Origin: Microvirga sp. TS319
GTDB taxonomy: Bacteria > Pseudomonadota > Alphaproteobacteria > Rhizobiales > Beijerinckiaceae
Length of the DNA stretch: 64,000 nt
NCBI RefSeq assembly: GCF_041276405.1
Contig: NZ_JBGGGT010000002.1
Span: forward strand, 2,269,001 to 2,333,000
Reading direction: 5' to 3'
In this document: in pieces, positions 8,286-63,583 of the stretch
How the letters are laid out: each line of letters starts with the position of its first letter
Position numbering within the stretch: position 1 is the stretch's first letter
Position numbers and translations under genes: made by a program
The notes under the pieces: model-generated
Database searches by the model: none
Seen by the model: only the letters and a program-made list of their open reading frames with translations
Told to the model about the DNA's origin: nothing

Positions 8286-8510
8286 GCATCGTGCGAAAAA
8301 GTGGTCCCGGTTTTTCGCCGGAACGATGCGCTCTTTCTAAGAAGAGAGCATCGAATTGATCCCAAAAATGGTTTCCACTTTTGGGTTCGATGCTCCGGTG
8401 CATCGTGCGAAAAAGTGGTCCCGGTTTTTCGCCGGAACGATGCGCTCTTTCTAAGAAGAGCGCATCGAATTGATCCCAAAAATGGTTTCCACTTTTGGGT
8501 TCGATGCTCT
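8286..8510. repeat. tandem pair of about 114-base composite palindromic repeats
   Basis: Two almost identical units start at 8286 and 8400. Each has a first hairpin (GCATCGTGCGAAAAAGTGG...AACGATGCGC) and a second hairpin (GCATCGAATTGATCCC...TTCGATGCTC), joined by TTTCTAAGAAGAG. The right end, GCTCT followed by A, supplies the TAG stop codon of the convergent ctaA gene. Confidence 0.95.
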
Positions 8511-9609
8511 ACCGGACCACGCTGACGCGGGCGTGAACCACCGTCATGGCAAGCACCGCCATGGCGAAGACCTGGTGGGCAAGCCCCGCCCAAAGCGGCA
8601 CCACGAGGAGAAGGGTCGCGATTCCGAGCGCCATCTGGGCCAGGGCAAGCCCCGCGATGCCCGTGGCGCGGCGCGCGGCGCCGGATCCCGGCGCCTGTCG
8701 GCGCAGGCTCCAGGCATGCCAGAGCGCGAAGGCGACAACCAGATAGGCCAGCATGCGGTGGTTGAACTGAACCAGCACGACATTGTCCACGAAGTTCTCG
8801 ATCCAGGGTTTGACCGAGAACAAAGCCGACGGGGGCGGGATCAGGCTACCGTCCATGAGCGGCCACGTATTGTACGTGTATCCGGCCTTCGAGCCCGCAA
8901 CGAGCCCTCCCAAGGCGATCTGCGCCAGAACCAGGAGCACGAGAATACGGGGCGCGAAGCCGATCCCCTTCTCGGCGGGCAACGCGCTGCGGTCCTTCAG
9001 CCCTGCGGCCACCCAGACGAGACAGACCAGAATGAGGCTCGCGACCGTCAGATGCAGGGCGAGCTTGATGGGCGCGACGGCGGTCATGCCGGGCTCGAGA
9101 CCGGACGCCACCATGATCCAGCCGATGGCTCCCTGCAGCCCTCCCAGCGCCCCGATGCCGAGCAATGTCAGCGCGAGCCGGCCCTTGATGGTCCCGCGAA
9201 GCCAGAACCAGACCAGCGGCACGAAGAAGACGAGGCCGATCAGGCGGCCGAGCTGCCTGTGCCCCCATTCCCAGCCATAAATGAACTTGAACTCGGACAG
9301 GGTCATGCCCTTGTTGACGAGCTCATATTGAGAGATCTGCTGATACTTCTCGAATTCGGCCTGCCAGGCCTGCTCCGTCAGAGGCGGAATCGCGCCGGTC
9401 ACGGGCTTCCATTCCGTGATCGACAGGCCCGAGCCCGTCAGACGGGTGGCACCGCCCACCGCGATCATCAGCACCACCAGGGCGGCCAGAGCGTAGATCC
9501 AGGTTCTCACGAGAGTCGGGGACCGGACGGGCGGCGATTGGCTTTCGGGCGATTGGCTTTCGGGAAGGCGCGTCAAGGACACGCCATCGGGTGAGGCTGC
9601 GACAGCCAT
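8509..9609 (-). CDS. ctaA: heme A synthase (COX15/CtaA family)
   Basis: 366 residues from the ATG complementary to 9607-9609; a longer frame to 9690 is less likely. About eight membrane helices are present. Conserved segments are GGATRLTGSGLSITEWKPVTG near residue 50, EWGHRQLGRLIG with the heme-ligand histidine, HLTVAS, and the second-half FNHRMLAYLVV and LAHQVFAM histidines. It oxidises heme O to heme A for aa3-type oxidases in the inner membrane. The TAG stop lies in the border of the repeat at 8286-8510. Confidence 0.93.
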   Translation of the reverse strand: MAVAASPDGVSLTRLPESQSPESQSPPVRSPTLVRTWIYALAALVVLMIAVGGATRLTGSGLSITEWKPVTGAIPPLTEQAWQAEFEKYQQISQYELVNKGMTLSEFKFIYGWEWGHRQLGRLIGLVFFVPLVWFWLRGTIKGRLALTLLGIGALGGLQGAIGWIMVASGLEPGMTAVAPIKLALHLTVASLILVCLVWVAAGLKDRSALPAEKGIGFAPRILVLLVLAQIALGGLVAGSKAGYTYNTWPLMDGSLIPPPSALFSVKPWIENFVDNVVLVQFNHRMLAYLVVAFALWHAWSLRRQAPGSGAARRATGIAGLALAQMALGIATLLLVVPLWAGLAHQVFAMAVLAMTVVHARVSVVR

Positions 9610-9734
9610 GCTCGTTCTCACTGGCAATTTAGGACTTGAACCCAGGTTACGGCTTGTCACATAGAGGCTGGGTCGCCGAAGGGCAATCAATGACAGTGAC
9701 GCACCGCCCTCGGGCGGGGCCGGAAGGGTTCATC

Positions 9735-9944
9735 ATGGGCATGCGATGGCGCAAACTGATCGGGACAGTGGCGATGCTGCTGTTCATCATCACCTATGCG
9801 CTGTTCGCCATGGCGTTGGCGGAGGGCCGCATCACCGAGGCGCCAAAGCTGATCCAGACCCTCGCTTATATCGTGCTCGGCCTGATCTGGATCGTGCCGC
9901 TGATGCCGCTCGTGCGGTGGATGGCCAAGCCGGACAAGTCCTAG
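9735..9944 (+). CDS. DUF2842 small membrane protein
   Basis: 69 residues with two hydrophobic helices (about residues 8-28 and 41-60) and the family pattern MRWRKLIGTVAMLLF...APKLIQTLAYIVLGLIWIVPLMPLVRWM. A start at 9735 follows GGAAGGG; a second ATG at 9741 is possible. Function is unknown, but the family is conserved in alphaproteobacteria, often near oxidase-assembly genes; here ctaA is divergent. The TAG stop forms the left CTAG border of the next repeat. Confidence 0.82.
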   Translation: MGMRWRKLIGTVAMLLFIITYALFAMALAEGRITEAPKLIQTLAYIVLGLIWIVPLMPLVRWMAKPDKS

Positions 9945-10123
9945 ATCATCGGACGTGAAAAGTGGACCTGCACTTTTGGGATTGGATCCGGTGCTCCCTT
10001 CTTAGAGCAGCGCATCGTTTAAGCGGACCCTAAGGGCCACGTTCGTGAAAACCGGGTCTACTTTTCGCTGGCGCGGCCCGCCGGGTCCGCACGACGCGCT
10101 AGAGAATCGGATCCAAAATCTAG
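9941..10123. repeat. composite palindromic repeat between two convergent genes
   Basis: Begins CTAGATCATCGGACGTGAAA, includes CACTTTTGGGATTGGATCC, a second hairpin built from CGTTTAAGCGGACC and GCGGCCCGCCGGGTCCGC, and ends with a third arm GAATCGGATCCAAAATCTAG. The outer CTAG at each end contains the TAG stop of the plus gene (9942-9944) and of the minus gene (10120-10122). Confidence 0.85.
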
Positions 10124-10314
10124 GCTCCGCCGATCCCTTCGATGATCTTGCCCGTGCCGCCGCATATCGGACAGGCCGTTGCGCCGATCCGCCCGCTGCC
10201 ATTGCATTCGGGACAGACATTTTCGCCGGTGCCCGGACTGCCCGGCTCGGCCTGGTCGCCGGGATTGAGTTTCGGTGGCTCGGATGCGGCTTGATCGCGC
10301 GATGGATTGTTCAT
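10120..10314 (-). CDS. small protein with DnaJ-type zinc-binding motifs
   Basis: 64 residues. The N-terminal half is polar and probably disordered. The C-terminal half has two CxxCxGxG motifs, CPECNGSG and CPICGGTG, which together resemble one zinc centre of the DnaJ cysteine-rich domain. No J-domain is present. A zinc-dependent chaperone-adaptor role is plausible but unproven. A near-consensus EcfG promoter lies 31 bases upstream. Its TAG stop is in the border of the preceding repeat. Confidence 0.75.
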   Translation of the reverse strand: MNNPSRDQAASEPPKLNPGDQAEPGSPGTGENVCPECNGSGRIGATACPICGGTGKIIEGIGGA

Positions 10315-10344
10315 GACGGGTCTCTCGGTGTCGTCTCATCCGTC

Positions 10345-10369
10345 AACGCGACAGTGGAATCGCGGTTTC
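10345..10369 (-). promoter_or_regulatory. possible EcfG-type promoter, one mismatch
   Basis: On the minus strand GAAAC (10365-10369), 16 bases, CGTT (10345-10348). The second base of the -35 box differs from GGAAC. Its position about 31 bases before the zinc-motif protein start is right for a stress promoter. Confidence 0.3.
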
Positions 10370-10410
10370 TCCGCTCCTCGATAGAAAAGACGCGCCCTCG
10401 AAAGAAAAGA

Positions 10411-10425
10411 CCCGCTTGAAGCGGG
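10411..10425 (-). terminator. rho-independent terminator of the 10468-10848 gene
   Basis: CCCGCTTGAAGCGGG forms a short hairpin. On the minus strand it is followed by TCTTTTCTTTC. It stands 43 bases past the stop codon. Confidence 0.6.
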
Positions 10426-11033: not shown

Positions 11034-11056
11034 TGTTCTCTCGTGGAAGCATCATC

Positions 11057-11150
11057 CCCGTCATGCCCGGCCCTGAGCCGGGCATCCACGTCTTCGACCT
11101 GGTGCGGTGCATCAAGACGTCGATGGCCATAAACCAAGGCGGCCATGACG
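11057..11150. repeat. GCCCGG...CCGGGC dispersed repeat, copy 2
   Basis: CGTCATGCCCGGCCCTGAGC, then CCGGGCATCCACGTC, ending GACGTCGATGGCC and GGCCATGACG. Same architecture as 6531-6620. Confidence 0.8.
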
Positions 11151-15823: not shown

Positions 15824-15866
15824 GATGAACAGGCGCGTCTTGCAGCAGCATAAGGCCGCTCGTAAC

Positions 15867-15938
15867 GATGCGCTCATCCATGCTGTCAGCACTGGATCGT
15901 TTCCCGAAATGGAGTCCACTTTTGGGAACGATGCTCTA
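15867..15938. repeat. palindromic repeat, diverged copy
   Basis: GATGCGCTCATCC at the left, then GGATCGTTTCCCGAAATGG and TCCACTTTTGGGAACGATGC ending GCTCTAA. It lies just before the 15981 gene. Confidence 0.7.
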
Positions 15939-19042: not shown

Positions 19043-19188
19043 TGTCCTGTTCCTTGCTGGGAATTCTTCGACCAGCCTCCCGATAGAAGATCGGCGTCGC
19101 CAAAGCCTTAAGACACAAGGTAAATGGGCATGAAGCTCGGCGCCGCAAGCGTGCCGTCGAGGCGTCCCGTCCGGCGGCTTCGTCATGG

Positions 19189-19364
19189 TCGATGTTTTCG
19201 AGTATCTCTTCGCGCAAAAGCGGTTCCCACTTCCCGCGCCCGATGCTCTCCTTGCTTGAGCATCTTTTCACGCAAAACCGGTGCCCACTTTTGCGCCCGA
19301 TGCTCTACTTGCTCGACCATCTTTTCACGCAAAACCGGTGCCCACTTTTGCGCCCGATGCTCTA
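19189..19364. repeat. three tandem palindromic repeats of about 60 bases
   Basis: Units at about 19189-19250, 19257-19305 and 19313-19364 share the core TTTTCACGCAAAACCGGTGC and CCACTTTTGCGCCCGATGCT. The last two are nearly identical. The right border, GCTCTA, contains the TAG stop of the ABC permease gene. They fill most of the 19043-19361 interval. Confidence 0.95.
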
Positions 19365-24515: not shown

Positions 24516-25397
24516 GTGAACGCGCCACAGGATATCCTCGCAAGGGTGCGCCGGTGGGCCGAGGACGGCTCCAAGGCGGAGCGCAGGCTCGCGTCTCTGG
24601 TGCTCTCCGACCTTGCTTACGTGTCCAAGGCGACAATTGCGGATATCGCGGGCCGCGCGGGCGTGAGCGAGCCGACCGTGACGCGGTTCGCAAGAGCGGT
24701 CGGCTGCGAAGGCATGCGGGATTTCAAATATCATCTCGCCCAGGCCCTGGCCGTGGGCGGCAATGATCCCAACCCGTCGCCGGCCCGGCGCGAAGAGCGG
24801 GAGGAGCGTATCCTGTCCGCCGTCTGCGACAACGCCATCACGGCGATCGAGGATGTGCGGGCGACCATCGACATGGATGTCGTCGACCGGATCGCCGAGC
24901 GGATCTCGACCGCCCGCTCGGTGCTGGCCTACGGTTCGGGGGGCGATTCCTCGATCATGTCGATGGAACTTCACAACCGGCTGTTCCGCCTCGGCTTGTC
25001 CGTCATGGCGCACAGCGACGGCCAGATGCAGCGAATGACCGCATCGGTGGCGAGCCCGGACACGGCCGTGATCGCCTTCTCGACCTGCGGATATTCTCGC
25101 TCGGTGGTCGACTCCGTCAGAATTTCGCGCCATTACGGAGCCAGGACGGTCGCCGTGACCGCGCCGGGTTCCGCCCTGGCGCGCGAAGCGGAGATTCTCC
25201 TGCCCTTTTCGATTCCGGAGGACGGCAATCTCTACAAACCGAACGCCGCGCGCTATGCCATGATGGCCATCGTCGATCTGATCGCGATGACCACGGCGGA
25301 GGCCATCGGGCCATCCGTGCTCGAAGGGCTCCGCCGCATCAAGCACAGCCTCGCGGCCGCGAACGTCAACGACCCGAGGTCGCCCCTGGGCGACTAG
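24516..25397 (+). CDS. MurR/RpiR family transcriptional regulator
   Basis: 293 residues from a GTG that follows the ATPase TGA by 2 bases, so translation is coupled. An N-terminal HTH_6 domain (KATIADIAGRAGVSEPTVTR, about 38-57) is joined to a C-terminal SIS domain (about 125-260; YGSGGDSSIMSMEL, FSTCGYSRSVVDSVRI) that binds phosphosugars. It probably controls the divergent transporter and dehydrogenase operons. RpiR proteins often sense amino-sugar phosphates such as MurNAc-6P. Its TAG stop is the CTAG border of the next repeat. Confidence 0.92.
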   Translation: MNAPQDILARVRRWAEDGSKAERRLASLVLSDLAYVSKATIADIAGRAGVSEPTVTRFARAVGCEGMRDFKYHLAQALAVGGNDPNPSPARREEREERILSAVCDNAITAIEDVRATIDMDVVDRIAERISTARSVLAYGSGGDSSIMSMELHNRLFRLGLSVMAHSDGQMQRMTASVASPDTAVIAFSTCGYSRSVVDSVRISRHYGARTVAVTAPGSALAREAEILLPFSIPEDGNLYKPNAARYAMMAIVDLIAMTTAEAIGPSVLEGLRRIKHSLAAANVNDPRSPLGD

Positions 25398-25501
25398 AGC
25401 ATCGAACGCAAAAGTGGGCACCGGTTTTGCGTGGAAAGATGCTCGGGCAAGGAGAGCATCGAACGCAAAAGTGGAACCCGGTTTCGCGTGAAAAGATGCT
25501 C
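25394..25501. repeat. tandem palindromic repeats after the RpiR gene
   Basis: Two units, each GAGCATCGAACGCAAAAGTG, CCGGTTTTGCGTG (second: CCGGTTTCGCGTG) and AAAGATGCTC. The first begins in the CTAG that holds the RpiR stop codon. Confidence 0.92.
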
Positions 25502-25520
25502 AAAACCATCAACTGAATGC

Positions 25521-25554
25521 AGCGGATATGGGCTCGATGTCACGTCCGATGCGA
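25521..25554. repeat. short palindromic repeat before the aldolase gene
   Basis: GCGGATATGGGCTCGATGTC and ACGTCCGATGCG, a short copy 20 bases upstream of the start codon at 25574. Confidence 0.65.
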
Positions 25555-25573
25555 TAAGAGAGATCAGGTTCCC

Positions 25574-29427: not shown

Positions 29428-29660
29428 CTAGAGCATCGGACGCGGGAAGTGGATTTGCACTTTTGGGATCAATTCGATGCTCCCACGATGGAACAGCGCA
29501 TCGTTTATGCGAAAAACCGGGGCCACTTTTTCGCACGATGGGCCGGAGCATCGGACCCGAAAGTGGAATCCACTTTTGGGATCAATTCGATGCTCCCTTC
29601 TTGGAAAGAGCGCATCGTTTATGCGAAAAACCGGGGCCACTTTTTCGCACGATGCGCTAG
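29428..29660. repeat. two tandem composite palindromic repeats
   Basis: Two units of about 117 bases. Each has hairpin one GCATCGGACnC...TTCGATGCTCC and hairpin two GCGCATCGTTTATGCGAAAA, CCGGGGCCAC, TTTTTCGCACGATG. The outer borders are CTAG (29428) and CTAG (29657). The repeats occupy half of the 29316-29806 interval; nothing else was seen there. Confidence 0.95.
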
Positions 29661-30815: not shown

Positions 30816-31032
30816 GACGGCAGTCTCCTGGCACGGGACGTGAGTCCCAGGGCGCCAATCCTTGCGAAACCGGAGTTCTTCAGGTTCGGCGAATGTCCTG
30901 TCCGACATGATCCAGACTGTCGTGTCGGGAGAAAAGCTGAGCCCATCACTCACCCCGATCCTGCTGCCCCGTGACGGTGCTGGTCCTCGGGCAGACCAAT
31001 TTTTTCGGGGACACGCGCCTCGGCGAGCTTGG

Positions 31033-31150
31033 AGCATCGGACGCGGGAAGTGGACTTGCACTCTTGGGATCGATCCGATGCTCCCTTCGTAGGTAAGCGC
31101 AGCGTGCGAAGAAGCGGGAGCCGGTTCTTCGCGAAGACTGATGCTTCATC
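31033..31150. repeat. composite palindromic repeat
   Basis: GCATCGGACGCGGGAAGTGG, ACTCTTGGGATCGATCCGAT, GCTCCCTTCGTAGG, then a diverged second hairpin GCGTGCGAAGAAGCGGGAGC, CGGTTCTTCGCGAAG. Confidence 0.85.
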
Positions 31151-31228
31151 GAAGGGATAGAGCAGCCAAGCTTCACTTATGTTAGTGAGGATTTTCTGAT
31201 CCTGGGCGAAGAAGAACAAAGACGTGCT

Positions 31229-31278
31229 AGCGCATCGGACCCAAAAGTGCAAATCCACTTCCCGCGTCCAACGCTATA
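31229..31278. repeat. single palindromic repeat
   Basis: GCATCGGACCCAAAAGTGCA, AATCCACTTCCCGCGTCCAA, CGCTATAGG. Confidence 0.8.
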
Positions 31279-34165: not shown

Positions 34166-34280
34166 GCTCATCGTGCGAGAAAGTGGCCCCGGTTTTTCGC
34201 AAGAACGATGCGCTCTTTTCAAGAAGAGAGCATCGGATCAGATCCCAAAAGTGGATTCCACTTTTCACGTCCCATGCTCG
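34166..34280. repeat. composite palindromic repeat
   Basis: GCTCATCGTGCGAGAAAGTG, CCGGTTTTTCGCAAGAACGATG, the spacer CTCTTTTCAAGAAGA, then GCATCGGATCAGATCCC and CACTTTTCACGTCCCATGCT. The rest of 34072-34611 has no supported gene. Confidence 0.9.
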
Positions 34281-38028: not shown

Positions 38029-38184
38029 GCCTCGATCCACCGGCTGCGAATGAGTTCTTGAAGAAGCATGCCGGGTCGACCGGGCGTCGCCGCGTCCTCG
38101 CTCCTCTCGATACCCCTAATGCGCCAGCCGAATCCACCTGCTCTTGACGAGCTTGAGCTTGTTCACCAGCGTTGGGAGCGTAGA

Positions 38185-38299
38185 CAATCGGACGTGAAAG
38201 GTGGAATCCACGTTCGGGATTCCTTCCGATGCTCCCGTCTTGGCAAGCGCGCATCGTTCTGGCGAAAAACCGGGTCCACTTTTTCGCACGATCCGCTAG
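38185..38299. repeat. composite palindromic repeat
   Basis: CAATCGGACGTGAAAGGTGG, TTCGGGATTCCTTCCGATGC, then GCGCATCGTTCTGGCGAAAA, CCGGGTCCAC, TTTTTCGCACGATC, ending GCTAG at 38295-38299. It fills the 38029-38325 gap. Confidence 0.9.
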
Positions 38300-38325: not shown

Positions 38326-39072
38326 GTGGTGACGACTCTTCAACGGGATCATCGGGCCAACCGGCTTCTCGCCGCGCTGGAACCAGCGGACTTTGCCATG
38401 CTGGAGCCGCATCTGGAGATTGTCGCCCTTCCGAAGGGCGCGGTGCTCTACGAGGCTGGCGAACCCATCCAACACACGTACTTCCCGCACGATGCGATCG
38501 TGTCCCTGGTCGAAGGCATGGAGGATGGGCGCGTAGCCGAAGTGGCGCTGTTCGGGCGCGAGGGGATGTTCGGTCTCTTGAGCGCCTTTATCAGTGGTGA
38601 AGCCCTTGGGCGCTACGTGGTGCTGGTCTCGGGCGCCGCCTCGCGGATTCCTGTCGAACGGATGCACCGGCTTCTCGTGCTGCGCTCCCGGCTGCGCCGC
38701 ATGGTGGCCGCTTTCAACGAGGCGGTGCTTGCCCAAGTGTTTCAAGCCGTGGCCTGCAATGCCCTTCACCCGGTCGAGGCCCGGTGCTGCCGCTGGCTTC
38801 TCAACACCCGTGACCGGATGGATCATGACACCCTGCCGCTGACCCACGAAAGACTGGCCGAGATGCTCGGGGTCCAACGCTCCACGGTCAGCACCGTCCT
38901 GCGCGCGTTGCAAACCAGCGGCCTGATTGCGCAACGCCGCGGCGGCATCGTCGTGACCAACCGGGCTGGACTCGAACAGGGTACCTGTGAGTGCTACCGC
39001 AAAGTGCGCCTCCGCGTCGAGAAGGTACTCCCCGGCCCCCATCCCCGTTTTGAGCGGACCAAGCCGTCCTAG
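38326..39072 (+). CDS. Crp/Fnr family transcriptional regulator
   Basis: 248 residues starting at a GTG (38326; the next codon is also GTG); an AGGAGGA site lies 13 bases upstream, slightly far. The cNMP-type barrel (about 15-120) includes ALPKGAVLYEAGEPIQHTYF, and the winged HTH has LPLTHERLAEMLGVQRSTVS followed by TVLRALQTSGLIAQRRGGIV. It has no redox cysteine cluster. The TAG stop is the left CTAG border of the next repeat. Confidence 0.88.
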   Translation: MVTTLQRDHRANRLLAALEPADFAMLEPHLEIVALPKGAVLYEAGEPIQHTYFPHDAIVSLVEGMEDGRVAEVALFGREGMFGLLSAFISGEALGRYVVLVSGAASRIPVERMHRLLVLRSRLRRMVAAFNEAVLAQVFQAVACNALHPVEARCCRWLLNTRDRMDHDTLPLTHERLAEMLGVQRSTVSTVLRALQTSGLIAQRRGGIVVTNRAGLEQGTCECYRKVRLRVEKVLPGPHPRFERTKPS

Positions 39073-39125
39073 AACATCGGAGCGGCCCCAAAAGTGCAAA
39101 TCCACTTTTCACGTCCGATGCGCTA
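39069..39125. repeat. single palindromic repeat capping two convergent genes
   Basis: CTAGAACATCGGAGCGGCCC, CAAAAGTGCAAATCCACTTT, TCACGTCCGATGCGCTA. Its left CTAG contains the stop of the Crp gene and its right CTA is the TAG stop of the minus-strand remnant. Confidence 0.92.
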
Positions 39126-46235: not shown

Positions 46236-47491
46236 CAAAGAGCGCGGAACGGAACGCGCAGACGGCTCCGATGCTCGACCGCAGAGACGAGCGCGTGAGG
46301 CATGCGGAAGGGTTCGGCGACACGGTCCGGGCCTTTCTGGACCGGGTCCGGTCCGGCGATCTCGGCTCGCTTCCCGTCGTCGTCGGCCTCGCGATCATCT
46401 GGACGGTGTTCCAGAGCCTCAACCCGGTGTTCCTGGCCCCCAACAATCTCGTCAATCTCCTGTTCGACTGCTCGACCGTGGGCGTGATCGCCCTCGGCAT
46501 CGTCTGCATCCTGATCGTCGGCGAGATCGATCTGTCGGTCGGATCGGTCAGCGGCTTCGCCTCGGCGCTTCTCGGCGTCACGTGGGTCAACCAGGGCTGG
46601 CCCGTCGCGGCCGCCGTCATCGCGGCGCTCGTCCTCGGGGCCCTGATCGGCGCCGTCTATGCCTTCCTGTTCAATCGCTTCGGCATGCCGAGCTTCGTCG
46701 CCACCCTGGCGGGCCTTCTGTCGATCCTCGGGCTCCAGCTCTATCTTCTCGGCTCGACCGGTTCGATCAACCTCCCCTACGGCTCCCCGTTCGTCGATTT
46801 CGGCCAGCTGCTCGTCATGCCCGACGAGGTCTCCTATATCCTCGCGGCGCTGCCGGGCGTCGTGATGCTCGTGCTCGGCTTCCGGACCGCCGCCCGCCGC
46901 CGCAAGGCCGGGCTGTCGGCCCAGCCCATGACCAGCCTTCTGCTGCGCATCGCCGTCATCACGATCGTGCTGGAATTCATCGCCTATTACCTGAACCTCG
47001 ATCGCGGCATCCCGTGGATGTTCGGCCTGTTCGTCGGGCTCGTGGTGGCGATGAACTATGCGCTGACCCGCACCCAATGGGGCCGTCAGATGCTCGCGGT
47101 CGGCGGCAACCGCGAAGCCGCGCGCAGGGCGGGCATCAACGTCAAGTTCATCTATACGACGGCCTTCATGCTCTGCTCCGGGCTCGCGGCCGCCGGCGGC
47201 CTCCTGGCCGCCGCGCGCCTGGCCTCGGCGAGCCAGCAGGCCGGCACCGGCGACGTCAATCTCAACGCCATCGCGGCCGCCGTCATCGGCGGGACCAGCC
47301 TGTTCGGTGGACGCGGAAGCGCCTACTCGGCCCTTCTCGGCATCATCGTCATCCAGTCGATCGCCAGCGGCCTGACTCTGCTCGATCTCTCCTCGTCGCT
47401 TCGGTACATGATCACCGGCGCCGTCCTCGCCATCGCGGTCATCGTCGACTCGCTGGCACGGCGCTCGCGCGTTTCCCATGGCCGGGCCTGA
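46232..47491 (+). CDS. sugar ABC transporter permease (XylH-like)
   Basis: 419 residues with about ten helices. Diagnostic segments are LVGEIDLSVGSVSGFASALL and, near the C-terminus, GGRGSAYSALLGIIVIQSIA, typical of CUT2 permeases. A hydrophilic N-terminus of about 45 residues precedes the first helix. It forms a homodimeric channel with the adjacent ATPase. Confidence 0.92.
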   Translation: MTKSAERNAQTAPMLDRRDERVRHAEGFGDTVRAFLDRVRSGDLGSLPVVVGLAIIWTVFQSLNPVFLAPNNLVNLLFDCSTVGVIALGIVCILIVGEIDLSVGSVSGFASALLGVTWVNQGWPVAAAVIAALVLGALIGAVYAFLFNRFGMPSFVATLAGLLSILGLQLYLLGSTGSINLPYGSPFVDFGQLLVMPDEVSYILAALPGVVMLVLGFRTAARRRKAGLSAQPMTSLLLRIAVITIVLEFIAYYLNLDRGIPWMFGLFVGLVVAMNYALTRTQWGRQMLAVGGNREAARRAGINVKFIYTTAFMLCSGLAAAGGLLAAARLASASQQAGTGDVNLNAIAAAVIGGTSLFGGRGSAYSALLGIIVIQSIASGLTLLDLSSSLRYMITGAVLAIAVIVDSLARRSRVSHGRA

Positions 47492-49917: not shown

Positions 49918-50010
49918 TCGAAAGCGCCTTCCGACTGCGCCAAATCGTGAGCGCAAGCCAGCCTTCGAGGCTTTGACAAGGGCGGTGTCTGCCCTCGAGT
50001 ATCGGACTGA

Positions 50011-50125
50011 GCGCATCGCTCTTTACGAAAAACCGGGTCCACTTTTTCGCACGATGCTCCGTTCTTGGACTGAGCGCATCGTTCTTGACGAAAAACCGGG
50101 TCCACTTTTTCGCACGATGCTCTAG
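50011..50125. repeat. tandem pair of palindromic repeats
   Basis: Two copies 63 bases apart of GCGCATCGnTCTTnACGAAA, CCGGGTCCAC, TTTTTCGCACGATGCTC. The right border is CTAG. Confidence 0.92.
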
Positions 50126-50173: not shown

Positions 50174-50440
50174 TTGCACCGCGTCATGGCCGGCATTGTC
50201 TTTATCGGTTTCAGCATCGCCTGCTCGGGTTCGGCCTTCAGCGCCGACAACACGCGCGCCCAGCACCGGAACTGGATGCGGAAACTCGACACCCCTGGCG
50301 GAACCCTGCCCGAGTCGCTCCAGGCGATCCTCAGCCGCGAGGAATCGGAGGCTCGCGTGCCGGATGGCACGACCGCCCAGCACCGGTCATGGATCAGGAA
50401 GCTCCAAATCTCGCATCAGACGAGCGGCACTGCGCTTTAG
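50174..50440 (+). CDS. small secreted protein with internal repeat
   Basis: 88 residues from a TTG at 50174 because GGAGG stands 5 bases before it; an ATG at 50186 would drop four residues. A signal peptide (about 1-23, AFSADN) precedes two copies of an AQHRxWxRKL motif, AQHRNWMRKL near 30 and AQHRSWIRKL near 69. No family was recognised. The TAG stop adjoins a palindromic repeat. Confidence 0.68.
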   Translation: MHRVMAGIVFIGFSIACSGSAFSADNTRAQHRNWMRKLDTPGGTLPESLQAILSREESEARVPDGTTAQHRSWIRKLQISHQTSGTAL

Positions 50441-50758
50441 CGCATCGTGCGAACCCAGCGGGCCGCGCTACAGCGTCGGGCGTGACATCGAACTCACGTC
50501 CGACGCTATAAGTCTATGGTCGTGAGCATCTTTCCACGCAAAACCGGTGCCCACTTCTACGTTCGATGCTTTTGATCTTGAGCATCTTTCCACGCAAAAC
50601 CGGTGCCCACTTTTGCGTTCGATGCTCTAGCGAAAAGCGGACCCGGTACTCGCTGACGCGGCCCTTCGGGTCCGCTCGCAACGATGCGCTCTTTCCAAGA
50701 CGGGAGCATCGGATTCAATCCCACACGTAGGTTGCGTCCGATGCTCGAGCCTGTCAGC
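50438..50758. repeat. array of about five diverse palindromic repeats
   Basis: In order: TAGCGCATCGTGCGAACCCA with CAGCGGGCCGCGCTAC; GCGTCGGGCGTGACATCGAA to CGTCCGACGC; two GAGCATCTTTCCACGC...GATGCTnT units (50525 and 50580); CTAGCGAAAAGCGGACCC to GATGCG; and GAGCATCGGATTCAATCC to TCCGATGCTC. It fills the 50441-50763 gap. Confidence 0.9.
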
Positions 50759-51856: not shown

Positions 51857-51962
51857 GAGCAAGGTCCGGCCGGTTTTTCGCCAAAACGATGCGCTCTTTC
51901 CAAGAACGGAGCATCGGATCGATCCCAAAAGTGCAAATCCACTTCCCGCGTCCGGTGCTCTA
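51857..51962. repeat. composite palindromic repeat
   Basis: AGAGCAAGGTCCGGCCGGTT, TTTCGCCAAAACGATGCGCT, CTTTCCAAGAACGGAGCATC, then GATCCCAAAAGTGCAAATCC, CGCGTCCGGTGCTCTAG. Its right CTAG is shared with the next element. Confidence 0.85.
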
Positions 51963-52066
51963 GAGCCTTTTCCGCAAAAGTGGATGCCGGTTTTGCGAAG
52001 AAAAGGCGTCTTTCTCAAACAACAAATGCCTTTTCCGTGAACCGAAGTTCATGGAAAAGGCTCTAG
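51960..52066. repeat. 107-base element with perfect 14-base terminal inverted repeats (MITE-like)
   Basis: CTAGAGCCTTTTCC at the left and GGAAAAGGCTCTAG at the right are perfect inverses. The centre contains CGCAAAAGTGG and CCGGTTTTGCG, a hairpin typical of this window's repeats. It has no coding capacity. The right CTAG contains the TAG stop of the convergent pseudouridine-synthase gene. Confidence 0.85.
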
Positions 52067-54175: not shown

Positions 54176-54388
54176 TCTATCTTACTCCTGTCATTTGTTT
54201 CAGATCGGGCAGGTTGCCGTTACGGAGCCTTAATGGCGGCTTCCGCTTTAAAGCGCAACAGCTTCGGGTCGTTTCCCGGCTACGGAAAACGCATGGCAGC
54301 CAGGACAATTCGCGGCCGGAAAGCGGCCAAGCCTCCCCGCCGGGCAACCTGTTTCGAGACGATGCCGCACAGAACGGGGGCAGCATCG

Positions 54389-54541
54389 GAGGCGACATCG
54401 AGCCCATCTCCGATGCTGTATGTCTGTGTTCTCAAGCATCTTTTCACGCAAAACCGGTATCCACTTTTCACGTTCGATGCTCCTTGGTCTTGAGCATCTT
54501 TTCACGCAAGACCGGTACCCACTTTTCACGTTCGATGCTCA
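54389..54541. repeat. array of three palindromic repeats
   Basis: GCATCGGAGGCGACATCGAG to CTCCGATGC, then two GAGCATCTTTTCACGC (first copy CAAGCATC), AAAACCGGTA, CCACTTTTCACGTTCGATGC units at about 54434 and 54491. The remainder of 54176-54645 is spacer containing the gdhA promoter region; no gene was seen. Confidence 0.92.
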
Positions 54542-54645: not shown

Positions 54646-56730
54646 ATGGCACGAGCGCGGGGCAAATCGAACGCAGGCAAGGGATCCAGCAACGACGGAT
54701 CCCGCAAGCCGCGCCGGACCGCGGGTTCCTCCGGAAAGGCGCGGGCGGTGCGAAACGCCCCGCGCTCCGCCCCCACGGCTCAAACCGACGACATTCCGAG
54801 CGATGCGAACGCCTCCATGGTCTCGGCCCCGCCGTCCATTCGCGTCGGCAATCGCGAATTCTCCGGATCGAGCCAGAAGCTCGGACCGCATGTTCTCGAT
54901 ATTCTGCCGGACATGCCGGACATCAGGGACCGGATCTATCTCCCGCACCTCAGGGCCCTGCTTCCCGGCATCTATCCGAGAATCGCATTTCCGGTTCGCA
55001 ACCAGGGCAAGGATTCGAGCTGCACCGGTTTCGCCCTGGCCCATGTCATCGACTACCTGCGCGCTCGGGAGGTCGGACCGGACCGCCCCGAGCCCGTGAG
55101 TTCGCGCATGCTCTACGAGATGGCGAAGCGCAACGACGAGTGGGAGGGCTCCGCCTATGAGGGATCGAGCATCCGGGGAGCCCTCAAGGGCTTCTACCAG
55201 AACGGCGTCTGCAGCGATGCGACCGCGCCGGACAAGCCCGGCATCAAGCGTTGGGCGCTGACCTACGACATGGCGAAAGAGGCGCGGGAAACCCGGCTCG
55301 GCGCCTACTTCCGGGTCCAGCCGGACATCAGCGACTACCATGCGGCGCTCAACGACATCGGCGTCATCTACGCCTCCGCGCAGATCCACTCCCATTGGGA
55401 CACGCCGAAGGACGGCCTCATCGAACCCGGAGGCGACCCGATCGGCGGCCACGCCTTCGCCATCGTGGGCTATGACGACGCCGGCTTCTGGATCCTCAAT
55501 TCCTGGGGGGCGGAATGGGGCGTCAACGGCATCGCCAAATGGACCTACGCCGATTGGGCGAACACGATCATGGACGCCTGGGTGCTGCAGCTCGGCGTCC
55601 GCGCTCCCGCGACGTTCGGGGCCGCCCCGGGCGTCACCCCGTCGAGCGCCACGGGCCTGTTCGGCTTCAACGAGCCGACGCGGAGCGACATCATCGGCCA
55701 CTACACGAATATCGACGATGGAACCCTCGTCACGTCGGGCAAGTACGGGTCCCCCACGGACACCGAGATGCAGGAGACCGTCGAGCGCCTGATCGACCCC
55801 GCCTCCAACGGCAATCAGGGCTTCGATCATCTCGTCATCTACGCGCATGGCGGGCTGAACACGCTCGCGGCCGAGGCCCAGCGCATCGCGATTTGGAAGA
55901 GGAACGACATCTACGGCCGCAACCGCATCTACAACTTCCATCTGATGTGGGGCTCGGGCTTCATCGACGAGGTCTTCGGCCAGCTGTCGCAATCGCCCGC
56001 CGTCGGTCGCGCCGGAGGGCGGATCTCCGACTGGTTCTTCGAGGCGGGCATCGGCAAGCAGACCGGCTCCTATGCCTGGCGGAACATGAAGCAGGACTCC
56101 CTGATGTCGTTCGGCGGCACGCCGGAATATGACGGCGGGTTCAAGGGATTGTCGCCGCTCCTCTCCGGACTGGACGGCGCGCCCCGGCGGCCCAAACTCC
56201 ACCTCGTCGGGCACAGCGCCGGAGCGATCGTGCTCGGATACCTGTTGTCCGCTCTCGATCGCTTCAAGCTCAAGCGGCTCGAGCTCGGATCGGTCCATCT
56301 GATGGCGCCGGCCTGCACGACCGCTTTCTTCGAGGAGCATTATGAGCCCTATCTGACCGGCAAGGGCGGACTGAGGCTGCAGGACCGGATCTATCTGTAC
56401 AACCTGACGGACCAGCTCGAGCAGGACGACACCGTATCGGCCAATTTCCCCCTGCTTCCGTCCTATGGCCACTCGCTGCTCTATCTGGTTTCGAGAGCCT
56501 ACGAGCAGGCCCCGAACACGCCCCTTGCTGGCATGCAGATCTATGCCCGCGGGCTGCCCTCTCACGCCAAGCTCGATATCGCCTATTCGACCGGAACCGG
56601 CGGGAAAACCGCCTCGCGCAGCCATGGCGGCTTCGACAACGACCCCGCGACGCTCGGAACCATCATGTCACGGATTCTCGGGAAGCCCGCTCCCCGTCCC
56701 CCGAAGGCCGACGAGCTGACCGGGTACTAG
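54646..56730 (+). CDS. papain-like (C1) cysteine protease fused to alpha/beta hydrolase
   Basis: 694 residues. A basic, low-complexity N-terminus (about 1-70) has no clear signal peptide. A C1 peptidase domain (about 90-315) carries Gln120 and Cys126 in VRNQGKDSSCTGFALAHVID, His269 in GGHAFAIVGYDD and Asn285 in WILNSWGAEWG, so the catalytic set is complete. The C-terminal half (about 340-640) is alpha/beta hydrolase-like: HLVIYAHGGLNTLA (oxyanion region) and the nucleophile elbow LHLVGHSAGAIVLG with Ser524. The two hydrolases in one chain are unusual; the target is unknown. The TAG stop adjoins a repeat. Confidence 0.82.
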   Translation: MARARGKSNAGKGSSNDGSRKPRRTAGSSGKARAVRNAPRSAPTAQTDDIPSDANASMVSAPPSIRVGNREFSGSSQKLGPHVLDILPDMPDIRDRIYLPHLRALLPGIYPRIAFPVRNQGKDSSCTGFALAHVIDYLRAREVGPDRPEPVSSRMLYEMAKRNDEWEGSAYEGSSIRGALKGFYQNGVCSDATAPDKPGIKRWALTYDMAKEARETRLGAYFRVQPDISDYHAALNDIGVIYASAQIHSHWDTPKDGLIEPGGDPIGGHAFAIVGYDDAGFWILNSWGAEWGVNGIAKWTYADWANTIMDAWVLQLGVRAPATFGAAPGVTPSSATGLFGFNEPTRSDIIGHYTNIDDGTLVTSGKYGSPTDTEMQETVERLIDPASNGNQGFDHLVIYAHGGLNTLAAEAQRIAIWKRNDIYGRNRIYNFHLMWGSGFIDEVFGQLSQSPAVGRAGGRISDWFFEAGIGKQTGSYAWRNMKQDSLMSFGGTPEYDGGFKGLSPLLSGLDGAPRRPKLHLVGHSAGAIVLGYLLSALDRFKLKRLELGSVHLMAPACTTAFFEEHYEPYLTGKGGLRLQDRIYLYNLTDQLEQDDTVSANFPLLPSYGHSLLYLVSRAYEQAPNTPLAGMQIYARGLPSHAKLDIAYSTGTGGKTASRSHGGFDNDPATLGTIMSRILGKPAPRPPKADELTGY

Positions 56731-56826
56731 CGCATCGTGCGGACCCAGCGGGCCGCGCCAGCGAAAAGTGGACCCGGTTTTCGCAGCATGCGGTGCGCTG
56801 TTCCATCGTGGGAGCATCGTGCGATG
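56727..56826. repeat. palindromic repeat after the protease-hydrolase gene
   Basis: CTAGCGCATCGTGCGGACCC, GCGGGCCGCGCCAGCGAAAA, GTGGACCCGG, then a diverged second part GGTGCGCTGTTCCATCGTGG and GAGCATCGTGCGATG. Confidence 0.85.
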
Positions 56827-58968: not shown

Positions 58969-59086
58969 GCTAGAGCATCGTGCGAAAAAGTGGCCCCGGT
59001 TTTTCGCGATAACGATGCGCTCATCTAAGAAGGGAGCATCGGAGGGAATCCCAGAAGTGGATTCCACTTTTCACGCCCCATGCTCT
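58969..59086. repeat. composite palindromic repeat
   Basis: CTAGAGCATCGTGCGAAAAA, GTGGCCCCGGTTTTTCGCGA, TAACGATGCGCTCATCTAAG, then GCATCGGAGGGAATCCCAGA to CACGCCCCATGCTCT. It fills most of the 58843-59095 gap. Confidence 0.93.
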
Positions 59087-59095: not shown

Positions 59096-60481
59096 TTACA
59101 CGATGGACGAGAGCGCGCCCGGCCCGTGCGACAGGACCGTCGCCAGCAATCCGAGGCCCCGCTCCAGCATGGCCCGGCTCTGCGCTGCCCCGAGGGAGAC
59201 CCGGATGGCGTCGGGCGCAGGGCCGACCGCAAAGGCCTCGCTCGGCACCAGGGCGAGGCCCGATTGCCGCGCATAGACGTTGAGATCGGCCCGATGCCAG
59301 CGGTCCGGCAAGGTCAGCCACAGGTGGTGTCCTTCCGGGTGGCTCTTGAACGCGAGCCCTGTCAGCGCCCGGCCGGCAATGGCCTGACGCGCAGCGCTCT
59401 CCGCGCGGACCGCCGCCGTGACGTCGTCCAGGGTTCCGTCGAGGATCCACCGCGAGGCCAGGGCGGCCATGAGGGGCGGGACCATGAGGGTCATCGCGCG
59501 GATCTCCGCCGCAAGCCGCAGCGTGTCCGACAATCCCGGCGTGACCACATAGGCCGTCCGAAGCGCAGGCGTCGCACATTTCGACAGGGTGGCGATATGC
59601 CAGGTGACATCCGGCGCAAGGGCCGCGATCGGCGCGGGCGCCTGCCGGGGCAGCGCGCCATAGGCATCGTCCTCGATGATCTTGATCCCGTGCCGCCGCG
59701 CGACCCCGGCGATGGCCTCGCGCCGCCCGGTCGACATCGTGGCGGTCGTGGGATTGTGAATGGTCGGGACGCAATAGACCGCCTTCGGCCGCTCGCGCGC
59801 GCACAGCTCCTCCAACGCGGCGGGATCGAGCCCCTCCTCATCCATCGCCACCGGGATCAACCTCACCCTGAGCTGCTCGGCGATCGCCCGCAGGCCCGGA
59901 TAGGTGAGATCCGGAACGCAGAGGGCGGCGCCCTCCGGAGCCAGAACGCGCACGACCGCATAGAGCGCCGTCTGCGCCCCGCCCGCCACCACCATGCGAT
60001 CGACCGGGACCGCATCGAGGCGCGGCGCGAGCCAACGGGCGCCCGCGGCGCGGTCCGGGCCGGCTCCGATGCTCTCCTGGTAGTGAAGATGCATCAGGCC
60101 CTGAGGAGCGTTCAGAATGCCGGCAATCCCGTCCTGAATGCGCTCCCGCAGCTTCGCCTCCGGCGGCTGCGGCGGCATGTTCATGCTCAGATCGATGATC
60201 GGAGATCCGGAACGGTCGGCCTCATCCTGTGCCGAGGCCCCTCCCCGCACATAGCTGCCCCGCCCCGTATTGGCCTCGATCAGCCCCATCCGACGCGCCT
60301 CGTTGAAGGCCCGGGTGATGGTGGTGAGGTCGACCCCGAGCGCCTTCGCGAGCAGGCGCTGCGCCGGCAGGCGCTCGCCCGACCTGAGGCGGCCGGACTG
60401 CACATCGGCTCGCAGCGCCCTGGCGATGGCCAGGTATTTGGGTCCGCTGTCCTTCTCGATGCGCGGCGTCCAGGACAACAT
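59096..60481 (-). CDS. MocR/PdxR-type transcriptional regulator (GntR HTH + aminotransferase fold)
   Basis: 461 residues from the ATG at 60481 behind AAGGAAGC. N-terminal GntR winged helix (LPAQRLLAKALGVDLTTITR, then NTGRGSYVRGG). The C-terminal fold-type I aminotransferase domain has PLP lysine in ATLSKCATPALRTAYVV and YCVPTIHNPTTATM. MocR proteins use PLP or an amino-acid-PLP adduct as effector. Two TGTATGG/CATACA palindromes between this gene and the divergent DUF983 gene are the probable operators. Confidence 0.93.
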   Translation of the reverse strand: MLSWTPRIEKDSGPKYLAIARALRADVQSGRLRSGERLPAQRLLAKALGVDLTTITRAFNEARRMGLIEANTGRGSYVRGGASAQDEADRSGSPIIDLSMNMPPQPPEAKLRERIQDGIAGILNAPQGLMHLHYQESIGAGPDRAAGARWLAPRLDAVPVDRMVVAGGAQTALYAVVRVLAPEGAALCVPDLTYPGLRAIAEQLRVRLIPVAMDEEGLDPAALEELCARERPKAVYCVPTIHNPTTATMSTGRREAIAGVARRHGIKIIEDDAYGALPRQAPAPIAALAPDVTWHIATLSKCATPALRTAYVVTPGLSDTLRLAAEIRAMTLMVPPLMAALASRWILDGTLDDVTAAVRAESAARQAIAGRALTGLAFKSHPEGHHLWLTLPDRWHRADLNVYARQSGLALVPSEAFAVGPAPDAIRVSLGAAQSRAMLERGLGLLATVLSHGPGALSSIV

Positions 60482-61424: not shown

Positions 61425-61454
61425 CCGAAGTTTCAGAAAATACTGAAATTTCGG
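61425..61454. promoter_or_regulatory. operator palindrome before the GbsR-type gene
   Basis: CCGAAGTTTCAG, 6 bases, CTGAAATTTCGG. The 12-base arms match at 11 positions. It lies 7 bases before the ATG at 61462, a strong candidate autoregulatory site of the encoded MarR/GbsR protein. Confidence 0.65.
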
Positions 61455-61461
61455 AATCGTC

Positions 61462-62043
61462 ATGAATCTCCCTCCCCTCGTTCAAACCTTCGTGCTCCAC
61501 TTCGGCGAGATGGGATCCCGCTGGGGGATCAACCGGACCGTCGGGCAGATCTATGCCCTGCTGTTCGTCTCGCCCGACGCGTTGAACGCCGAGGACATCG
61601 TCGAGCGTCTCGGCGTATCGCGCTCGAACGTGAGCATGGGCCTCAAGGAACTGCAGGCCTGGAACCTCGTGCGGCTTCAACACAAGCCCGGGGACCGGCG
61701 CGAATATTTCTCCACGCCCGACGACATCTGGCAGATCGTCCGCAGCCTCGTCGAGGAGCGCAAGAAGCGCGAGATCGACCCGACCATGACGCTCCTGCGC
61801 GAAGTTCTCATGCAGGAGCCCGCAAGCGCGGAGGAGCGTCATGCGCAGGAACGCATGCGCGAGATGCACGATCTCTTCGAGCTTCTGACGGGCTGGTACG
61901 CCGACGTCCGGCGGCTCGATACGGAGCGCCTCGTCCAGCTCCTGACGCTGGGCTCGAAGGTTCAGAAGATCCTGGAAATCAAGGATCGCCTCTTCGTCGT
62001 TCCGGGCTCCAGGAAGAGCCGCAGCGACGTCAAGGATCAATGA
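61462..62043 (+). CDS. GbsR/MarR family transcriptional regulator of cydAB
   Basis: 193 residues. A MarR-like winged HTH (NRTVGQIYALLFVSPDALNA, then VSRSNVSMGLKELQAWNLVR and GDRREYFSTPDD) is followed by a C-terminal helical dimer domain. The cydA ATG begins 1 base after its stop codon, so the three genes are one operon. It probably represses the bd oxidase operon in response to oxygen or a quinone signal, and binds the palindrome just upstream of itself. Confidence 0.9.
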   Translation: MNLPPLVQTFVLHFGEMGSRWGINRTVGQIYALLFVSPDALNAEDIVERLGVSRSNVSMGLKELQAWNLVRLQHKPGDRREYFSTPDDIWQIVRSLVEERKKREIDPTMTLLREVLMQEPASAEERHAQERMREMHDLFELLTGWYADVRRLDTERLVQLLTLGSKVQKILEIKDRLFVVPGSRKSRSDVKDQ

Positions 62044-62044
62044 C

Positions 62045-63583
62045 ATGTTCGATCAGTTCGACGCGCTTCTCCTCGCGCGTTTCCAGTTTGCGTTCACGGT
62101 CTCGTTTCACTTCATCTTCCCGGCGTTCTCGATCGGTCTGGCGAGCTATCTCGCCGTGCTCGAAGGGCTCTGGCTGTGGACCGGGCGCGAGGTCTATCTC
62201 AACCTGTTCAAGTATTGGCTCAAGATCTTTGCGCTCGCCTTCGCCATGGGGGTGGTGTCAGGCATCGTCATGTCCTACCAGTTCGGCACCAACTGGGCGG
62301 TGTTCTCGGACAAGGCCGGGCCGATCATCGGGCCCCTGATGGCCTACGAGGTCATGACCGCGTTCTTCCTGGAGGCGGGCTTCCTCGGCATCATGCTGTT
62401 CGGCATGGGCCGCGTCGGCCGGAGGCTGCACTTCGCCGCAACGCTCGCGGTCGCCGTCGGCACCTTCATTTCCGCCTTCTGGATTCTCTCGGCCAATTCC
62501 TGGATGCAGACTCCGGTCGGCTACCTGGTGAACGAGGCCGGGCAGTTCGTGCCCCAGGACTGGTGGGCGATCATCTTCAACCCGTCCTTCCCGTACCGCC
62601 TCGTGCACACGGTCATGGCGGCCTATCTCACCACGGCCCTCGTGGTCGGCGGAGTCGGCGCCTGGCATCTCCTACGCGATCGCGCCAACAAGGGCGCGCG
62701 GGTGATGTTCTCGATGGCCATGGGAATGGTGGCGCTCGTCGCCCCGCTCCAGATCCTCGCAGGCGACATGCACGGCCTCAACACCCTCGAGCATCAACCG
62801 GCCAAGGTCATGGCCATGGAGGGCCATTTCGAGAGCCATCCGGACGGCGCGCCGCTGATCCTGTTCGGCATCCCCGACCAGGAGGCCGGCACGGTCCGCA
62901 ACGCCATCGCGATCCCGAAGGCATCCTCGCTCATCCTCAAGCACGACCCGAATGCGCCCCTGAACGGGCTCGACACGGTCGATCGCGCCGAATGGCCCTA
63001 CGTGCCGGTGGTGTTCTGGTCGTTCCGCATCATGGTGGGCCTCGGCTTTCTGATGCTCGGCCTGGGAGCGGCGAGCCTCCTGGCCCGTGTCCGGGGCCGG
63101 CTCTACGACTGGCGCTCCCTGCACTGGCTCGCCCTGTCGATGGCCCCTTCGGGCTTCGTCGCCGTCATCGCCGGCTGGGTGACCACGGAGGTCGGCCGCC
63201 AGCCCTTCACGGTCTATGGCCTCCTCAAGACGGCGGCCTCGGCCTCGCCGCTCGAGGCGCCGGCCGTCGCGACCTCGCTGCTGACCTTCATCGTCGTCTA
63301 CTTCATCGTATTCGGCGCGGGCACCGGCTACATCCTCAAACTGATGGGCAAGCCGCCGCACCACGGAGAGACGGGACCCGAGGCCGGACCCGATCACCCG
63401 ATCCGCGCGGCCGGCATCACTCCGGCGCCCGCCGTCGATCCGAACCGTACCCTGGCGCCTCGTGCGAAAAAGTGGCCCCGGTTTTTCGCAAAAACGATGC
63501 GCCCCTCCAAGAAGGGAGCATCGGATTCGATCCCAAAAGTGGAGTCCACTTTTGGGTCCGATGCTCTAGGCGCAGAGACCTGA
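62045..63583 (+). CDS. cydA: cytochrome bd ubiquinol oxidase subunit I with repeat-derived tail
   Basis: 512 residues; about nine helices. N-terminal heme-ligand histidine in VSFHFIFPAFSIGLA, the quinol-site region GDMHGLNTLEHQPAKVMAME, and GWVTTEVGRQPF. The Q-loop is short, as in the cyanide-insensitive (CIO) branch. Typical members end near residue 470. Here residues from about 471 (RAKKWPRFFAKTMRPSKK and on to the end) are encoded by the palindromic repeat at 63455-63570, giving a basic 40-residue extension. The core is intact and should be functional with CydB. Confidence 0.92.
   Translation: MFDQFDALLLARFQFAFTVSFHFIFPAFSIGLASYLAVLEGLWLWTGREVYLNLFKYWLKIFALAFAMGVVSGIVMSYQFGTNWAVFSDKAGPIIGPLMAYEVMTAFFLEAGFLGIMLFGMGRVGRRLHFAATLAVAVGTFISAFWILSANSWMQTPVGYLVNEAGQFVPQDWWAIIFNPSFPYRLVHTVMAAYLTTALVVGGVGAWHLLRDRANKGARVMFSMAMGMVALVAPLQILAGDMHGLNTLEHQPAKVMAMEGHFESHPDGAPLILFGIPDQEAGTVRNAIAIPKASSLILKHDPNAPLNGLDTVDRAEWPYVPVVFWSFRIMVGLGFLMLGLGAASLLARVRGRLYDWRSLHWLALSMAPSGFVAVIAGWVTTEVGRQPFTVYGLLKTAASASPLEAPAVATSLLTFIVVYFIVFGAGTGYILKLMGKPPHHGETGPEAGPDHPIRAAGITPAPAVDPNRTLAPRAKKWPRFFAKTMRPSKKGASDSIPKVESTFGSDALGAET
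63455..63570. repeat. composite palindromic repeat inside the cydA reading frame
   Basis: GCGCCTCGTGCGAAAAAGTG, CCGGTTTTTCGCAAAAACGATGC, CCTCCAAGAAGG, then GCATCGGATTCGATCCC, TTTTGGGTCCGATGC and the border GCTCTAG. It lies entirely in the cydA frame without an in-frame stop. Confidence 0.95.

Follow-up and report, generated by a model that had tools for sequence, protein, structure and literature searches.

Why do so many genes in one stretch of a bacterial chromosome end in a TAG that lies at the border of a palindromic repeat? The question is raised by a segment of 64,000 nucleotides, positions 2269001-2333000 of contig C2 in the two-contig, 6.26-Mb genome of Microvirga sp. TS319; this whole segment is referred to as the window. 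Named Microvirga species have ctaA proteins with up to 86% identity to the one encoded here. An earlier reading of the same DNA, the original prediction, had held that dispersed palindromic repeats insert at CTAG near gene ends or replace the original stop codon, with two consequences: trimmed or extended C-termini, and hairpins at mRNA 3' ends as possible terminators or RNase shields. The window was matched against 47 other genomes assigned to the genus, several scans covered 464 kb of the window's own genome (G000), and stops and borders were counted across genomes in partial stretches of seven genomes with 1552 conserved genes. It is highly probable that the palindromes are non-autonomous miniature inverted-repeat transposable elements (MITEs) of the IS630/Tc1-mariner type, which target the word YTAR and preserve the stop codons into which they insert.

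The repeats themselves were found as predicted. At least 60 direct-repeat families occur in the window; among the 20 listed, six are palindromic units of 50-110 nt with 6-12 copies each, and these contain the sequence blocks quoted in the original prediction. Alignment of 24 full or near-full copies gave a consensus of 111 nt. The unit of about 111 bp consists of two imperfect hairpins; it starts with G(A/C)GCATCG and finishes with the complement of such an end. In the consensus, hairpin 1 reads GAGCATCGGACCCAAAAGTGGA-TCCACTTTTGGGATC..CCGATGCTC and is followed by a short linker and by hairpin 2, GCGCATCGTT..GCG-AAAACCGGGTCCACTTTT-CGCACGATGCGC. A profile of this unit yielded 29 matches in the window, many of them overlapping or on both strands, and 111 matches in the 464 kb. 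The genome contains at least 150 full-length copies: scoring covered 150 of 4544 first-look candidates, and all 150 matched, the weakest with an E-value of 5e-21. Tandem units were found as well, and a composite may itself recur in one piece. The element is short (111 bp), multi-copy and non-coding, as is required of a MITE. With a profile trained largely on copies from the own genome, the density there was 362 matches per Mb, compared with 89 in the next of the seven genomes. At the gathering threshold Rfam gave no match across the window, and a curated Rfam family for the palindromes was rejected for this reason.

The borders of the elements reveal how they are inserted. Although the profile used to scan the own genome did not demand a TA, 46 of the 78 ends of 39 distinct full-length copies touch one (23 left, 23 right), and 45 of these 46 read YTA. 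For 20 further copies from the own genome, TA was touched at 26 of 40 ends, all of them YTA. In the seven partial genomes, 128 ends next to a TA overlap a profile or block match, and the outer base is Y at 118 of them and A or G at the other 10; 241 TA-flanked matches outside profile or block matches (68 Y, 173 R) were excluded as chance. The 61 two-ended elements, which were picked for a TA at both ends and are reduced to 57 once identical copies are removed, lie at CTAG (27), CTAA (17), TTAG (6), TTAA (3) or other words (8). The CTAA-type sites show that only TA is duplicated and that the G is the first base of the element. A 4-bp duplication of CTAG was rejected because CTAA and TTAG elements exist. 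Read from these borders, the target is YTAR (CTAG, CTAA, TTAG, TTAA) with duplication of TA, the target-site duplication of an IS630/Tc1-mariner MITE; the predicted insertion at CTAG is thereby sharpened. CTAG itself is depleted, with 24 occurrences in the window versus 75.6 expected from dinucleotide shuffles, and 222 in the 464 kb versus about 1543 expected from base composition.

Empty sites in sister species were sought by joining the flanks of the 61 elements minus one TA and looking for an ungapped match across the junction in other species. Such a counterpart was found for 17 of the 61 rows, which correspond to 15 distinct loci (one locus is present three times). At eight of these, the junction consists of a single YTAR: L041 versus L045 (97% identity, GAAGCGC-TA-AGGC), L148 versus L175 (91%), position 47224 of the own sequence versus L191 (85%), L023 versus L121 (84%), L184 versus L191 (84%), the RpiR site of the window versus L207 (83% over 204 nt, GGCGACTAGAAG), L030 versus L149 (80%), and position 59579 of the own sequence versus L144 (80%).

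A similar picture emerges from the convergent genes for a DUF2842 protein and a zinc-motif protein. In the window, an element (9942-10101) plus a decayed 20-bp end occupies 9942-10122, between the DUF2842 stop (TAG 9942-9944, plus strand) and the stop of the zinc-motif protein (TAG 10122-10120, minus strand); the stretch 9941-10099 recurs at C2:2887173 with 95% identity. The survey comprised 35 Microvirga loci, eight more having been skipped for lack of a usable match or stop. At 11 of the 35 loci, the two convergent stops overlap by four bases in one empty YTAR, and at nine loci inserts of 43-175 nt separate the stops. Six of these nine inserts start with TAG and end with TA (the window, L023, L047, L030, L113 and L114), whereas those of L024, L025 and L043 do not. 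Since the inserts differ by clade, insertion between these stops probably happened repeatedly; shared ancestry within clades was judged by eye. In a wider set of 93 loci, which includes some genomes twice, the DUF2842 stop is TGA in 49, TAG in 28, TAA in 14 and unreadable in two cases.

All ten window genes named in the original prediction end in TAG at a repeat border and at the coordinate given there. In nine of them, the bases after TA differ from a palindrome end at no more than one position, whereas the gene for the zinc-motif protein (10120) adjoins a decayed end. The base preceding the TAG is C or T in eight genes and G in ctaA and the MalG-like permease gene. To place these cases in a wider frame, 203 conserved genes were classified as near (stop within -15 to +10 nt of a repeat block) or far (more than 400 nt); 33 genes were excluded, three with stops inside a block and 30 at 10-400 nt. 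Near stops (n = 24) are TAG in 18, TGA in four and TAA in two cases, while far stops (n = 146) are TGA in 87, TAA in 31 and TAG in 28 cases (Fisher p = 1.4e-7). The expected excess of TAG beside repeats is therefore present, whereas the assumption that TAG is uncommon elsewhere did not hold, as it ends 28 of the 146 far genes.

The association extends to the seven-genome set, where a palindrome-like end follows 39 of 312 TAG, 7 of 368 TAA and 7 of 872 TGA stops (p = 1.4e-17). The base before these capped TAG codons is Y in 36 of 39 cases, compared with 289 of 641 other TAA or TAG stops. Independently of annotation, a frame open for at least 100 codons is closed at 45 of 96 element YTAG borders, versus 93 of 750 other YTAG sites; in the other two frames at the element borders, the values are 27/96 and 12/96.

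The stop codon appears to have been in place before the element arrived. For 18 of the 39 capped TAG genes, two of which share one element, the far TA-bounded end could be located as well, and the base following the duplicated TA is A or G in 18 of 18; the codon before insertion was therefore TAA or TAG. Replacement of the original stop, as predicted, is thus confined to the third base, namely a change from TAA to TAG. Examples are gene 430 of the own genome, whose orthologues end in TAA in three of four cases, and gene 551 of genome g21 (TAA in two of three). In 65 of 94 orthologue pairs with one capped and one uncapped member, both proteins end at the same residue (C-terminal offset zero), and in 76 of 94 the offset is at most one residue, so that the predicted trimmed or extended C-termini are not supported.

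The individual window genes can be judged in the same way, and at five of them one or more orthologues that lack the repeat have TAG at the identical codon, an observation that the original prediction had itself named as refuting it. For MalG, four repeat-free orthologues with 93-95% identity share the last residue; three end in TAG (g12, g17, g21) and one in TAA. Such an orthologue exists likewise for RpiR (g12), the DUF2842 protein (g14) and the zinc-motif protein (g14). The protease-hydrolase fusion has three repeat-free orthologues that end in LTGY-TAG (L308, L309, L310); a further one has TGA at the same codon (L311), L312 is cut off, and L313, with 35-40% identity, ends nine residues past its alignment. 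Two of six ctaA orthologues end at the aligned last residue and four lie 1-3 residues away. The RsuA-like orthologues have a variable C-terminus and are uninformative. In the seven-genome set, the Crp-like gene has one orthologue (63% identity), whose alignment stops eight residues short of the end, and the molybdopterin-subunit remnant has none.

Which transposase could have moved the elements? Genes matching PF13358 (IS630 family) occur in 39 of the 48 Microvirga genomes, including the own genome, where the loci L131 and L133 have GAGC termini at CTAG; a search for terminal inverted repeats (TIRs) around the PF13358 matches of this genome detected clear GAGC ends bounded by TA at 2 of 11 loci. 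In sister genomes, an IS630 subfamily of about 1,054 bp ends in GAGC(A/C)(T/C)CGGAC, which is the same as the palindrome ends; a terminus of about 11 bp is common to autonomous IS630 copies, for example L251, L252 and L258, and to the palindromes. The elements hence share their TIRs with an autonomous IS630 element. Among 32 loci scanned, 17 have both ends of this type, with no more than one change from it, and their sites are CTAG (7), TTAG (5), CTAA (4) and ATAG (1), that is, YTAR in 16 of 17. Of the remaining 15, L275 is the GAGCCATTTCC copy of the own genome, the pairing in L276 (ATAT) is doubtful, and no convincing pair of GAGC ends was obtained at the other 13, of which some lie at contig ends. 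A transposase close to L248 was found in 22 of 48 genomes at E <= 1e-100 and in 31 of 48 at E <= 1e-40, the latter including relatives with about 50-56% identity such as the own copy. Two IS630-family transposase copies on contig C1 of the own genome (L131, L132) contain an in-frame TAG.

These observations suggest the following course of events. From the common ends and the common target we infer that an IS630-family transposase mobilised the elements of about 111 bp in trans. Insertion at YTAR duplicates TA and, as the element begins with G, the sequence that leads into it on each side is Y-TA-G. Any TAA or TAG that follows a C or T is itself a target and stays a stop in the same frame, TAA becoming TAG; where convergent genes overlap in one YTAR, both stops survive. 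Because the stop is kept, such sites would be nearly harmless landing places: the target word contains the stop, the first base of the element completes it, and nothing is lost. Selection would purge most insertions elsewhere in genes, so that elements would pile up at stops and between genes. Our conclusion is that insertions into stops are permitted by the target word and then kept by selection, and that no special stop-seeking has been shown.

Several findings weigh against this explanation. TA is missing at the left end of 16 of the 39 full-length copies and at the right end of 16 of 39, for which decay was assumed. Seven of the 15 empty-site partners have no YTAR at the junction, namely those of L185 (whose partner reads CTAT), of L147 and L035, and of positions 124056, 148282 (the window ctaA element), 74017 and 121401 of the own sequence; most partners have 78-91% identity, so that the precise base of the target is in many cases uncertain. 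A zero C-terminal offset is less frequent in the 94 capped pairs (69%) than in 3340 control pairs (82.6%), and these orthologue pairs share genes, are hence non-independent, and exclude an uncounted number of pairs in which both tails exceed eight residues. The orthologues of capped genes end in TGA (36), TAG (35) and TAA (23; n = 94) and, as TGA cannot serve as a target, the stops must be assumed to have turned over after divergence; the orthologues of uncapped TAG genes show a pattern close to this one (TAG 208, TGA 168, TAA 162; n = 538). The ends of own elements lie at conserved stops in 23 of 93 cases, compared with 33 of 684 free YTAR sites, which overstates the preference because conserved genes cover 55% of that sequence. 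Autonomous IS630 copies are not located at stops, with 2 of 34 borders closing a frame open for at least 100 codons; stops thus seem to be favoured by tolerance rather than aimed at. Within the own genome, the matching IS630 subfamily has no close representative, the best copy showing 56% identity and an in-frame stop. For want of a close intact partner there, movement in trans is only inferred, and the genome may have lost its intact partner. Finally, G036 has no PF13358 match yet carries full-length elements, as do G028 and G023; the case of G036 indicates that the elements outlive their mobiliser or use another one.

The alternative that fares best, though rather improbable, is compatible with a MITE origin: selection would keep the palindromes as 3' hairpins of mRNAs, and the position at the stop would reflect this function. 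In its favour are the 45 of 96 element YTAG borders that close long open frames, the occurrence of related elements in at least 41 of 149 family genomes, and the conservation of the hairpin sequences in the 24 aligned copies. In these copies, only 2 of 27 predicted pairs are changed on both sides, so that sequence conservation dominates, rather than evidence for an RNA fold. Moreover, a given locus has different copies in different species, or none at all, and the target motif already accounts for the position. The hairpins finish with ..GATGCGC-TA and lack the T-run needed for termination; they do not look like intrinsic terminators, and this reading was rejected. The MITEs may have acquired a later role as mRNA 3' hairpins.

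There is little to recommend the idea that the palindromes are repetitive extragenic palindromes (REPs) moved by a REP-associated tyrosine transposase (RAYT, Y1), although they are high-copy, intergenic and often paired. GTAG-tagged REPs are a RAYT-type class with GTAG at one end, and this foot would supply the TAG. Here, the foot is mostly YTAG and occurs at both ends of well-preserved copies; instead of GTAG at one foot without target duplication, A or G was found outside at only 10 of 128 ends, and TA at both ends. The termini match IS630 copies, and Y1_Tnp gave no match in the own genome and matches in 6 of 48 Microvirga genomes; RAYT-moved REPs were rejected on the absence from the own genome. 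Just as improbable is mobilisation by an IS5-family transposase with a YTAR target and a 4-bp duplication, in place of an IS630-family enzyme. Some IS5 elements reportedly use YTAR-like targets; however, only TA is duplicated, a left border YTAG is paired with a right border CTAA in 17 of 61 elements, and the GAGC termini are found on copies of IS630, the only one of the two families searched. Least probable of all is the version of the original prediction, in which the repeats entered the coding sequence close to the gene end and took the place of the stop, trimming or extending the C-terminus: it would account for the TAG in the border of all ten genes and for the 18 of 94 capped pairs that differ by more than one residue at the C-terminus, but most repeat-free orthologues share the C-terminal residue, the codon before insertion was a stop in every readable case, and only three conserved genes end inside a repeat block versus 24 at its border.

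How do the elements compare with known systems? RIME and ABC (rhizobial intergenic mosaic elements) and Brucella Bru-RS are dispersed paired palindromes of Rhizobiales. IS630 of Shigella sonnei reportedly prefers TA within CTAG, to go by the title of a 1991 article by Tenzen and Ohtsubo. ISY100, a member of the IS630/Tc1-mariner family, duplicates TA (PMC2170065). Both are autonomous, whereas the copies described here are tiny and non-coding and their target is relaxed to YTAR. RUP (repeat unit of pneumococcus) is a MITE of IS630-Spn1 of about 107 bp with an IS630-like TIR and a TA-containing target, and it is over-represented between convergent genes (portions of PMC3049150 and PMC2229807); size, TIR type, TA target and location between convergent genes all agree. 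However, RUP is AT-rich, whereas the present unit contains two different palindromes and belongs to Alphaproteobacteria, and the accessible sections of these two papers describe no stop-preserving YTAR geometry. MiniMdi3 of Methylobacterium extorquens, a MITE of about 400 bp related to ISMdi3 with four and eight MITEs in two strains (PMC2680597, in part), comes from a related genus but is longer; it is likened here by description. GTAG-tagged REPs are palindromes near gene ends whose termini provide TAG stops (PMC3733652, in part); unlike these, our elements have a TA duplication and YTAG at both ends, and reside in a genome without a RAYT match. IS630 MITEs such as RUP, the CTAG preference of IS630, and REPs that provide TAG stops are therefore already known. 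A limited literature search found no account of stop-preserving IS630 MITEs, of pre-existing stops that are preserved, or of Microvirga palindromes.

Compared with known IS630 MITEs, the stop-preserving geometry is the interesting part. It offers a mechanistic reason for the impression that TAG stops can be supplied by palindromic repeats in GC-rich bacteria, and it would clearly exemplify a transposon for which gene ends are safe ground by virtue of its target. The elements would also contribute to TAA-to-TAG turnover, and sister genomes in which a given gene does or does not carry a 3' hairpin constitute a natural experiment on the effect of hairpins on mRNAs.

Beyond the genus, a covariance model with 25 candidates scored per genome detected related elements in at least 41 of 149 family genomes and at least 20 of 43 genera, the own genome included. 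For 20 copies from three other genera, the left border is YTA in 12, GTA in one and without TA in seven cases; many of these copies retain the two-hairpin plan. A further-reaching proposal, speculative and less likely than not, is that mini-transposons land in stops family-wide without altering the protein, YTAR and the leading G together sparing both stops of a convergent pair. In time they would have capped a sizeable share of gene ends and moved stop usage from TAA towards TAG, and they might by now modulate mRNA 3' ends in the relatives of Methylobacterium and Microvirga. In L318 (about 230-370), from another genus, an element lies within the TTAG loop of an apparent hairpin (GTGACTGACGC..GCGTCAGTCAC), which it splits.

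The other elements of the window differ in completeness. The one next to ctaA (8282-8511) is a composite of two 111-bp units (8284-8395 and 8398-8509) with TA at both ends; the last C of the composite and the right TA form the minus-strand TAG of ctaA, and the whole recurs from TA to TA with 86-88% identity at C2:2708469, 2791105 and 1758353. The MalG-like permease gene (TAG 19364-19362, minus strand) is capped by tandem palindromes (19188-19364). At RpiR (TAG 25395-25397, plus strand), the element spans 25395-25556, with TA at 25395-25396 and 25555-25556 and a decayed right end. A single palindrome (39070-39125) lies between the convergent stops of the Crp-like gene (TAG 39070-39072, plus strand) and the molybdopterin remnant (TAG 39125-39123, minus strand). 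A composite array (50438-50746) begins at the TAG of an 88-residue protein (50438-50440, plus strand) and has an internal TA border at 50628-50629. The RsuA-like gene (TAG 52065-52063, minus strand) is capped by an array (51869-52065) made up of an element at 51869-51962 and a GAGCCTTTTCC-type element at 51961-52065, and the protease-hydrolase fusion (TAG 56728-56730, plus strand) by an element at 56728-56820.

Further copies comprise two tandem 111-bp units with CTAG at both borders (29429-29659), a full-length unit on the minus strand (63455-63568; right border CTAG 63566-63569), and near full-length units at 34167-34279 (minus strand), 38181-38298 (plus strand, right end CTAG) and 58971-59085 (minus strand, CTAG left border). 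Two elements (31032-31132 and 31228-31278) make up 31027-31278, and tandem palindromes are located at 50004-50125, with CTAG at the right end, and at 54381-54541, without clear TA borders. A partial element at 15857-15938, identified by direct repeats and profile, has the right end CGATGCTC-TA.

A second dispersed palindrome, CGTCATGCCCGGCC..GAGCCGGGCATCCACG, occurs at 6525-6566 and 11055-11096 with 90% likeness; similar blocks were also seen elsewhere in the 464 kb, and no TA borders were noticed. Self-comparison of the own genome showed a multi-copy block of 1719 bp at C2:2261422, which is probably an insertion sequence. At the start of the window, positions 5-304 and 1019-1318 form a 300-nt direct repeat with 85% identity, the two copies being about 1 kb apart.

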